Part shown: positions 43,948 through 45,130 of the stretch, piece by piece
Layout: each line of letters starts with the position of its first letter
How positions within the stretch are numbered: position 1 is the stretch's first letter
From: Streptosporangiales bacterium
GTDB taxonomy: Bacteria > Actinomycetota > Actinomycetes > Streptosporangiales > WHST01
Assembly (NCBI GenBank): GCA_009379825.1
Contig: WHTA01000045.1
Coordinates: 1 to 46,637, forward strand
Length of the DNA stretch: 46,637 bases
Direction: 5' to 3'
Program-made: the position numbers and the translations under genes
The notes under the pieces: model-generated
Database searches by the model: none
What the model saw: the letters and a program-made list of their open reading frames with translations, nothing else
What the model was told of the DNA's origin: nothing

Positions 43948-44310
43948 TCAGCTGGCTTGCTTGGCCACCTCGTCGTGGACCTGTTGCATGTCGAGGTCGC
44001 GCGTCTTCTGGATGAGCTCCTCCAGGCTCTGCTCCGGCAGCGCTCCCGGCCTCGCGTACACGATGACTCCGTCGCGGATGATCATCAGGGTCGGGATGGA
44101 GCGGATGTCGTGCGCCTGGGCGAGCGCGATCTCGGCATCGGTGTCGACCTTGCCGAACGTGATGTCCGGGTGTCGTTCTGACGCCCGCTCGAACACCGGC
44201 CCGAAGGCGCGGCACGGACCGCACCAGGCGGCCCAGAAGTCGACGAGCACGATCTCGTTGTCGTCGACGACATCGCTGAAGTTGGCTTCGGTCAGCTCGG
44301 TCGTTGCCAC
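43948..44310 (-). CDS. trxA: thioredoxin
   Basis: A 120-residue thioredoxin with the redox site WCGPC (Cys30, Cys33) in VDFWAAWCGPCRAFGP, the cis-Pro segment SIPTLMII and a longer acidic/Gln-rich C-terminal helix. It reduces disulfides in the cytoplasm. The GTG at 44310 is set by AGAAGGA just upstream and by where the family begins (TTELTEANFSD); the frame is open to 44550 but that part overlaps the hairpin region. A thioredoxin reductase is not in the window. Confidence 0.93.
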   Translation of the reverse strand: MATTELTEANFSDVVDDNEIVLVDFWAAWCGPCRAFGPVFERASERHPDITFGKVDTDAEIALAQAHDIRSIPTLMIIRDGVIVYARPGALPEQSLEELIQKTRDLDMQQVHDEVAKQAS

Positions 44311-44435
44311 CTCAAGTCCTTCTCTCGGTTCTCGTAGTCCCCGTTGCTCTATCTGGAACGTCGCCTCGGAGCGCGAAATTCCACCGACAGCGGGGAGGGG
44401 AGAGGCTTGGGACGAAGGTCCTCGGGCAGAAGAAA

Positions 44436-44473
44436 CCTCCCGCCGAGTCCCGGGGGGTTGACTCGGCGGGAGG
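44436..44473 (-). terminator. intrinsic terminator-like hairpin with C-rich loop
   Basis: A perfect 14-bp stem joins 44436-44449 and 44460-44473 (CCTCCCGCCGAGTC with its complement). On the minus strand the loop has six C in a row and the stem is followed by TTTCTTCT, a true T-rich tail, rare here. It would end a minus-strand transcript coming from the tRNA side, 126 bases before the thioredoxin start, or act as an attenuator of trxA. Confidence 0.75.
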
Positions 44474-44816
44474 CCACGAGCCGGCGCGGTACCGCAGCCT
44501 GCGCTCGCCATGAAGAACGACCGAGTACGGCAGAGGTAACGCAGCCCCACGACTTTCTCTCCCCAACCAGACGCCCGGTCGACGAGAGGCGCCCTGCCGG
44601 GCGTAGGGCGGTATGCGGCACCGGAGCCGTGTCGTGTCGTCGCAGGTCAACGGCAGGGCGGCCGGTGACGGGCAAGACCCGTGCGCTGCATCGGGCCGGC
44701 CGCCAGGCCACGCCCGACCCGGCACAAGGGGGACGTAGTACCGAGTGTGGCGCTCGTCACCCCCGGTGTACCCAGGCCCAGCCCAGCCGCCCACCCGCCG
44801 GGGTCTTGGTGCGGCC

Positions 44817-44936
44817 GCCGAGCGAAGCGAAGGCACCCAAAGCTTCGGTGCCACGATGCGCTGTCCCCGCGCAGCCGGTGGCGAGCGAAGCGAAGCCAAG
44901 GACTCCAGGTACGTGCCGAGCGAAGCGAAGGCACCC
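44817..44936. repeat. three copies of a GAGCGAAGCGAAG repeat
   Basis: A 22-base sequence is identical at 44817-44838 and 44915-44936, and its 13-base centre GAGCGAAGCGAAG recurs at 44883-44895. The first copy runs into a GGCACC/GGTGCC inverted repeat (44832-44852). Such GCGAAG repeats are seen in intergenic DNA of some actinobacteria; no function is known to me. Confidence 0.7.
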
Positions 44937-44978
44937 CCAGGGGAAGTCGGTTCCACCAGGTCCAGGGAACGTGGGGGT

Positions 44979-44997
44979 CCGGGGGCTCGGCCCCCGG
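44979..44997 (-). terminator. GC-rich hairpin downstream of tRNA-Val
   Basis: CCGGGGGC (44979-44986) and GCCCCCGG (44990-44997) form a perfect 8-bp stem with a TCG loop, 62 bases past the tRNA 3' end. It may end or process the tRNA transcript. No T-run follows. Confidence 0.5.
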
Positions 44998-45058
44998 GAA
45001 GATACTCCGGCTCACCGCGAAATCGAGCAACGCGAGATGAGTAGGGGAGGCCAGCGCG

Positions 45059-45130
45059 TGGGCGATGCTGGGATCGAACCAGCGACCTCCTCGGTGTGAA
45101 CGAGGCGCTCTTCCACTGAGCCAATCGCCC
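45059..45130 (-). tRNA. tRNA-Val (anticodon CAC)
   Basis: 72 bases fold as a full cloverleaf on the minus strand: acceptor GGGCGAT/ATCGCCC, D arm GCTC/GAGC, anticodon arm CCTCG/CGAGG with loop TTCACAC (anticodon CAC), T arm GCTGG/CCAGC with loop TTCGATC, and discriminator A at 45059. The CCA end is not encoded. Confidence 0.95.

Follow-up and report, generated by a model that had tools for sequence, protein, structure and literature searches.

The intergenic interval 44311-45058 of the DNA analyzed here (a stretch of 46,637 nucleotides, referred to as the window) carries a copy of a conserved RNA element directly behind a tRNA-Val gene. From its position, orientation, structure, covariation, U-richness and placement at the end of tRNA arrays, we consider it probable (about 0.72) that this element is a conserved bipartite, U-tailed intrinsic terminator of tRNA, tmRNA and SRP RNA genes. 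As part of the same explanation, the interval would hold the 3' end of the tRNA-Val unit and, beyond it, the boundary on the upstream side of trxA. The features discussed below are as follows.

43948-44310, minus strand: trxA, encoding a thioredoxin (PF00085, Pfam match), GTG start
44357-44382, minus strand: GGAAT-N18-GTT, a putative sigma-R/H-type promoter motif before trxA (motif search)
44436-44473, minus strand: perfect 14-bp hairpin with loop AACCCCCCGG and a T-rich tail (inverted-repeat search; folding)
44817-44936, minus strand: 22-nt repeat, present three times, with a GCCTTCGCTTCGCTCGGC core
44950-44978, minus strand: ACCCCCACGTTCCC...GTGGAAC extension, common to the copies of this genus (alignment A1)
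44972-45050, minus strand: copy of the conserved stable-RNA trailer element (covariance model R1, 74.1 bits)
44979-44997, minus strand: second, near-invariant GC hairpin of the element, CCGGGGGCCGAGCCCCCGG
44998-45004, minus strand: U-rich spacer, TATCTTC (sequence; family-wide T content)
45017-45021, minus strand: 3' side of the conserved internal loop, TTCGC (sequence; loop-type pairing)
45022-45038, minus strand: inner hairpin (fold prediction; parsing of copies)
45039-45043, minus strand: 5' side of the conserved internal loop, TACTC here and TGYTC in most copies (sequence; loop-type pairing)
45058-45130, minus strand: tRNA-Val (anticodon CAC), the stable RNA gene preceding the element (ARAGORN; Rfam RF00005, 68.1 bits)

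The interval is gene free and contains two conserved zones

The interval is bordered by trxA and tRNA-Val(CAC), both of which lie on the minus strand. Third-position GC of its open reading frames was 0.67 to 0.77, compared with 0.90 to 0.92 in four neighboring genes, and a Pfam search of these frames matched no family. Since the frames show neither a third-position GC excess nor a Pfam match, protein-coding content was ruled out and the interval is regarded as gene free, which bears out the view taken in the first-pass annotation of this DNA.

When the whole interval was used to query 41 genomes, two matching zones emerged. The first comprises approximately 170 nt directly 3' of tRNA-Val and has many further copies, both elsewhere in the genome and in congeners; most of these recurrences are directly behind tRNA genes, and others are behind SRP RNA (Rfam RF00169). 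The second is the region of the 44436-44473 hairpin, which had a single match, in the congener G001, where it also adjoins trxA. Between approximately 44520 and 44890 there was no match in the 41 genomes, and the folding of this part was not unusual when its z scores were compared with those of control windows. A nested stem had previously been described at 44657-44704. The inverted repeat exists (44652-44665 and 44696-44709, 86% complementary), but it folds no better than chance: the folding windows that contain it had z scores of -0.5 to -1.7 (control mean, -0.09; standard deviation, 1.09). On the basis of the 41-genome interval search and of folding within the control scatter, it was rejected as a conserved structure.

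A covariance search of the interval in related genomes, the check that had been suggested earlier, did find conserved structure, at 44972-45050. An Rfam 15 scan of the window gave the tRNA as the sole match at the gathering score, and the element matches no Rfam family; in the element loci that were scanned, Rfam matches were limited to RNA genes, one riboswitch, 6C and one CRISPR repeat. Our literature searches found no description of the element, and when we call it not in print, we mean that and nothing more.

The element is a covarying structure with a fixed internal loop

Twenty-one training copies were aligned without structural guidance (alignment A2), and the covariance model R1 was built from them. 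The layout consists of an outer stem, a conserved internal loop (UGYUC/UUCSC) and an inner stem that covaries freely; a U-rich spacer then leads to a GC hairpin that is nearly invariant. Among the training copies (n = 21), 90.2% of the cells pair in the two-helix structure, and there are 43 double-change cells, compared with 13.9 after shuffling and at most 11 when the pairing partners were slid. As an independent test, 46 further copies from outside the training set were aligned by MAFFT (A4). Here 88.3% of the cells were paired, with 94 double-change cells compared with 28.5 (shuffled) and at most 30 (slid).

Nearly every pair of the inner stem varies, and the internal loop is fixed. In the 46 independent copies, T at column 8 is present in all 46, and G at column 9, T at column 11 and C at column 12 are each present in 45. 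The two halves of the loop occur in matched types, namely, TGCTC with TTCGC (21 times), TGTTC with TTCCC (11 times) and TGGTC with TTCC plus one letter (5 times); these counts are for the 56 of 67 copies that have a parsable perfect stem, the window copy being among the 11 that were left unparsed. The second hairpin, in which a CGA loop separates a G run from a C run, is almost unchanged across copies. On the sense strand, the spacer between the hairpins contains 45.3% T and 6.4% A, compared with a background of 14.7% T in the same loci (70 of the 77 copies directly behind an RNA gene were parsable), which corresponds to a mean of 5.9 T in 13 nt.

In the window copy, two of the seven expected inner-stem pairs are mismatched, and folding favors an alternative CUCAU/GUGAG pairing, so this copy may be somewhat degraded. 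Its second hairpin is intact, and its U-tract is short. This second hairpin is the GC hairpin at 44979-44997 that had been noted before, which was therefore confirmed; the element behind the tRNA as a unit had been overlooked, as had the trxA promoter motif. The 22-nt GAAGCGA repeat was considered as the main feature of the interval and rejected because its GCCTTCGCTTCGCTCGGC core occurs only eight times in the genome at one mismatch or fewer; several of these occurrences adjoin other copies of the element.

The element is mostly located at the 3' ends of stable RNA genes

R1 was searched against the 41 genomes (that of the window and its relatives) at E <= 0.01, and all 121 matches were classed. 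Seventy-seven immediately follow an intact stable RNA gene, at -7 to 18 nt (66 tRNA, 9 tmRNA and 2 SRP RNA genes), 16 are tandem copies (one of which, in G029, follows a copy sitting at a contig end), 6 are behind a 3' tRNA remnant, 3 are at contig ends and 19 are elsewhere. This last group includes a match at the end of a WhiB-like gene (by eye), matches behind GC hairpins, one that is 202 nt behind a tRNA and several weak matches in G038 that share little with the element beyond the second hairpin. The location behind RNA genes was not built into the search, since R1 by design holds no RNA gene sequence; two training copies extend 2 to 3 nt into the tRNA, and most training copies came from behind RNA genes.

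Eighteen of the 97 element-bearing units end a tRNA array. A co-directional tRNA or tmRNA gene was present within 200 nt downstream in 1 of the 57 units for which at least 300 nt of downstream sequence was available. In the genome of the window, at the cut-off used, the element directly follows 6 of 43 tRNA genes, and the tmRNA and SRP RNA also bear it. The SRP RNA and tRNA-Leu(CAG) copies are found at corresponding genes in different species.

Some individual loci deserve mention. At L266 (1287-1580), a c-di-AMP riboswitch aptamer (RF00379) is followed after 34 nt by a copy that is possibly the expression platform of this riboswitch; a terminator would be in place behind an aptamer, and this copy thus supports the terminator reading. 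At six loci (L264, L291, L316, L317, L320 and L336), the element follows a 3' tRNA half rather than a whole gene, and these apparently represent the displaced far end of an integration site, where the original terminator was left behind. Approximately 10 of the 33 tRNA downstream regions examined in G000 contain a convergent ORF that ends like a tyrosine recombinase (LRHT...GH...Y, by eye; L031, L032, L036, L040, L041, L042, L047, L057, L162 and L167), and many of its tRNA genes therefore appear to harbor integrated elements. At three congener loci, L030 (G000:C2), L293 (G001:C6) and L294 (G002:C25), a GC hairpin with a CCCCCGAGC-type loop immediately precedes the element copy, and these loci may share a single conserved small RNA or gene end. 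In G038 (L305, L307, L308, L309 and L310), TTTGTGGGGGGGCGACCCCCCAC-type hairpins, which resemble the second half of the element only, are also found away from RNA genes, and at G000:C73:24938-25135 and C52:41252-41380 (L025) the second-hairpin part is repeated head to tail in units of approximately 42 bp.

The element is shared across genera of the order

At E <= 0.01, R1 matched 24 of the 41 genomes and 12 of the 19 genera. The filters of the larger searches lose weak matches, so the counts that they gave are lower bounds: at least 158 of 297 genomes (37 of 62 genera) in the order sample (E <= 1e-4), and at least 35 of 296 genomes (10 of 115 genera) in the class sample, of which 25 are outside the order (10 carriers belong to the same order, 24 to family f19 and 1 to family f48). 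In the phylum sample, searched under the same constraint at E <= 1e-5, the genome of the window alone was recovered (1 of 296). Five f19 genomes of genus g123 were searched more fully and contained 26 to 49 matches each (E <= 0.01). Forty loci were fetched from these families outside the order; the element is directly behind tRNA or tmRNA in 22, behind a tRNA-like 3' remnant in 5, within 300 nt in 2 and elsewhere in 11, 2 of which appear remnant-like by eye. The plasmid and phage records that we searched contained no copies of the element.

The 44436-44473 hairpin lies upstream of a trxA promoter motif

The arms of the inverted repeat at 44436-44449 and 44460-44473 match exactly and enclose a 10-nt loop, AACCCCCCGG. 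The tail on the minus strand is TTTCTTCT. The earlier description of a perfect 14-bp hairpin with a C6 loop and a T-rich tail is therefore accurate, the C6 being contained within the 10-nt loop, and a perfect 14-bp hairpin followed by TTTCTTCT is what is expected of a terminator. The 100-nt folding window that includes this hairpin had a z score of -3.4 (control mean, -0.09; standard deviation, 1.09). Our terminator scan, which was restricted to loops of 3 to 8 nt, did not list it.

Comparison of the window with G001 revealed that all 10 loop letters and the inner stem are identical and that the outer stem differs with its pairs kept (CCTCCC/GGGAGG versus CTGCCC/GGGCAG); the tail in the congener is only TTCGTTCC. 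The upstream genes also differ, being tRNA-Val in the window and a transporter-like ORF in G001 (by eye), and the hairpin therefore goes with trxA. Its core (two mismatches or fewer) has a single occurrence in G000 and another in G001, and the 39 other genomes lack it. As a wider trxA feature the hairpin was rejected, since it is present at only two of 30 trxA loci, the window's own and that of G001.

The motif GGAAT-N18-GTT, which we take to be the sigma-R/sigma-H consensus, was found 55 to 89 nt before the trxA start at 17 of 30 trxA loci, compared with 2 of 30 on the opposite strand. Thioredoxin genes belong to the sigma-R/sigma-H regulon, and we infer that a factor of this type would recognize the trxA promoter. 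In the window, the motif is downstream of the hairpin. A transcript initiated from it would exclude the hairpin, which speaks against attenuation of trxA, and the trxA leader with attenuation envisaged in the first-pass annotation is for this reason not favored. The hairpin is more likely to be a stop that insulates the trxA promoter than an attenuator of trxA.

The 6C RNAs of Rfam (RF01066) are C-rich loop hairpins of actinobacteria. The 44436-44473 hairpin resembles them in having C6 in its loop, but its score is below the cut-off (24.3 bits versus 47), and this assignment was rejected. An Rfam scan of the congener hairpin locus gave other weak matches only, all of which were below the cut-off. 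A peptide leader running through the hairpin was also considered and dropped because the frame differs across the hairpin in the two genomes (by eye).

Intrinsic termination as the proposed function

Covariation indicates that the GC-rich hairpin of the element has been kept by selection (with two mismatches in the window copy), a U-rich tract stands behind the hairpin, as measured over the 70 parsable copies of 77, and the element is placed in sense orientation at the 3' end of transcription units. Intrinsic termination would be the most economical mechanism to account for this. The outer and inner hairpin would fold behind RNA polymerase as it leaves the tRNA, and the polymerase would halt in the U-rich spacer, just ahead of the G-run hairpin. 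The second hairpin may act as a back-up or brake that catches read-through or slows the polymerase, after which tRNA 3' processing would remove the trailer. Farther downstream, the 44436-44473 hairpin would provide a second stop and shield the sigma-R/H-type trxA promoter. We infer termination itself, as well as the roles of the second hairpin and the internal loop, from these patterns.

Several observations argue against a terminator. The second hairpin and the genus-specific stretch are conserved past the presumed stop, and a simple terminator needs neither; nor does an intrinsic terminator need the conserved letters of the internal loop. Only 6 of the 43 tRNA genes in the genome of the window are directly followed by the element, 19 of the 121 matches are not behind a stable RNA gene, and the window copy combines two mismatched inner pairs with a short U-tract. 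The fixed internal loop and the second hairpin are unexplained by a plain terminator, and a processing function or a signal read by a protein might account for them. The element might be a dedicated stable-RNA signal whose internal loop and G-run/CGA/C-run hairpin are recognized by a protein or the polymerase, coupling termination with 3' maturation; we put this forward tentatively and at rather low odds. If it were true, the termination and 3' maturation of tRNA, tmRNA and SRP RNA would be coupled via one RNA motif in these actinobacteria.

It is unlikely that the element serves chiefly as a signal for RNA processing or as the source of a stable trailer RNA, which would be transcribed whole and then cut off, its conserved loop and C-rich parts acting as a binding site or sponge. 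Such a role would suit the conserved internal-loop letters, the near-invariant second hairpin downstream of the U-rich spacer and the extra conserved stretch in this genus, but the spacer itself, the tandem copies, the end-of-array placement and the copies behind protein genes fit a terminator directly. We find it harder still to credit a dispersed palindromic, REP-like repeat that has copied itself behind stable hairpins and RNA genes. Genomes do contain several copies (up to 49 matches in one), some in tandem and some behind GC hairpins and coding genes. However, full covariation accompanied the divergence of the stems around a retained loop, the SRP RNA and tRNA-Leu(CAG) copies recur at corresponding genes in different species, and the copies lie in one orientation right behind RNA 3' ends, with no plasmid or phage match. 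The least probable explanation, and a very improbable one, is that of the first-pass annotation, i.e., either a minus-strand RNA covering the stretch between tRNA-Val and the 44436-44473 terminator or attenuation within a trxA leader: the hairpin is real, T tailed and conserved upstream of the congener trxA, but the conserved element already provides a terminator behind the tRNA, the region from approximately 44520 to 44890 has neither a match in the 41 genomes nor unusual folding, and the trxA promoter motif is downstream of the hairpin. A conserved, structured region does follow tRNA-Val, but it is at 44972-45050 and looks like the tRNA's own terminator, so an RNA running from the tRNA to 44474 is unnecessary.

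Strong U-tracts are scarce in GC-rich actinobacteria, which bears on how these organisms stop transcription. A recognizable terminator family common to tRNA, tmRNA and SRP RNA genes would make the termination and 3' processing of stable RNAs accessible to sequence searches. Its members would be a ready collection of natural variants for testing and might supply compact terminators for use in strain engineering, and the element would improve the annotation of RNA gene ends and of the attachment sites of integrated elements.

Comparison with known systems

In the Streptomyces Term-seq atlas, terminators are reported to carry only 3 to 4 U within their first 10 nt, and their hairpins covary (PMC12207403); by this measure, a mean of 5.9 T in a 13-nt spacer is not weak for such genomes. 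Like the intrinsic terminators of GC-rich actinobacteria covered in the excerpts of two reports (PMC12207403, PMC8269248), the element has a strong GC hairpin and a modest U-rich tract and is found at the 3' ends of units. Unlike the Streptomyces terminators, it is one family with a conserved internal loop and a fixed second hairpin, and it prefers stable RNA genes across genera; the same excerpts describe no such family (PMC12207403, PMC8269248). The use of two neighboring hairpins as one termination unit is shared with the clustered-hairpin terminators, a class defined by the number and spacing of hairpins, whereas the element is defined by its sequence and structure behind RNA genes (PMC8355165).

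In the archaeon Methanopyrus, about half of the tRNA genes are likewise followed, at a fixed distance, by a conserved inverted motif, which its authors propose to be a tRNA maturation signal. This palindrome differs from the element in being short and simple, and its authors did not find it elsewhere. Stable trailer RNAs are exemplified by the 3'ETS trailers, such as the leuZ 3'ETS of Escherichia coli. The E. coli rrn operons have dual terminators with an sRNA between them (PMC8144298). As a terminal structure of stable RNA operons that might also give rise to regulatory by-products, the element resembles both the rrn dual terminators and the 3'ETS; for the element, such by-products are hypothetical. 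Among the sources cited here, the nearest printed parallels to the element are the Methanopyrus palindrome, the clustered-hairpin terminators (PMC8355165) and the rrn dual terminators (PMC8144298).
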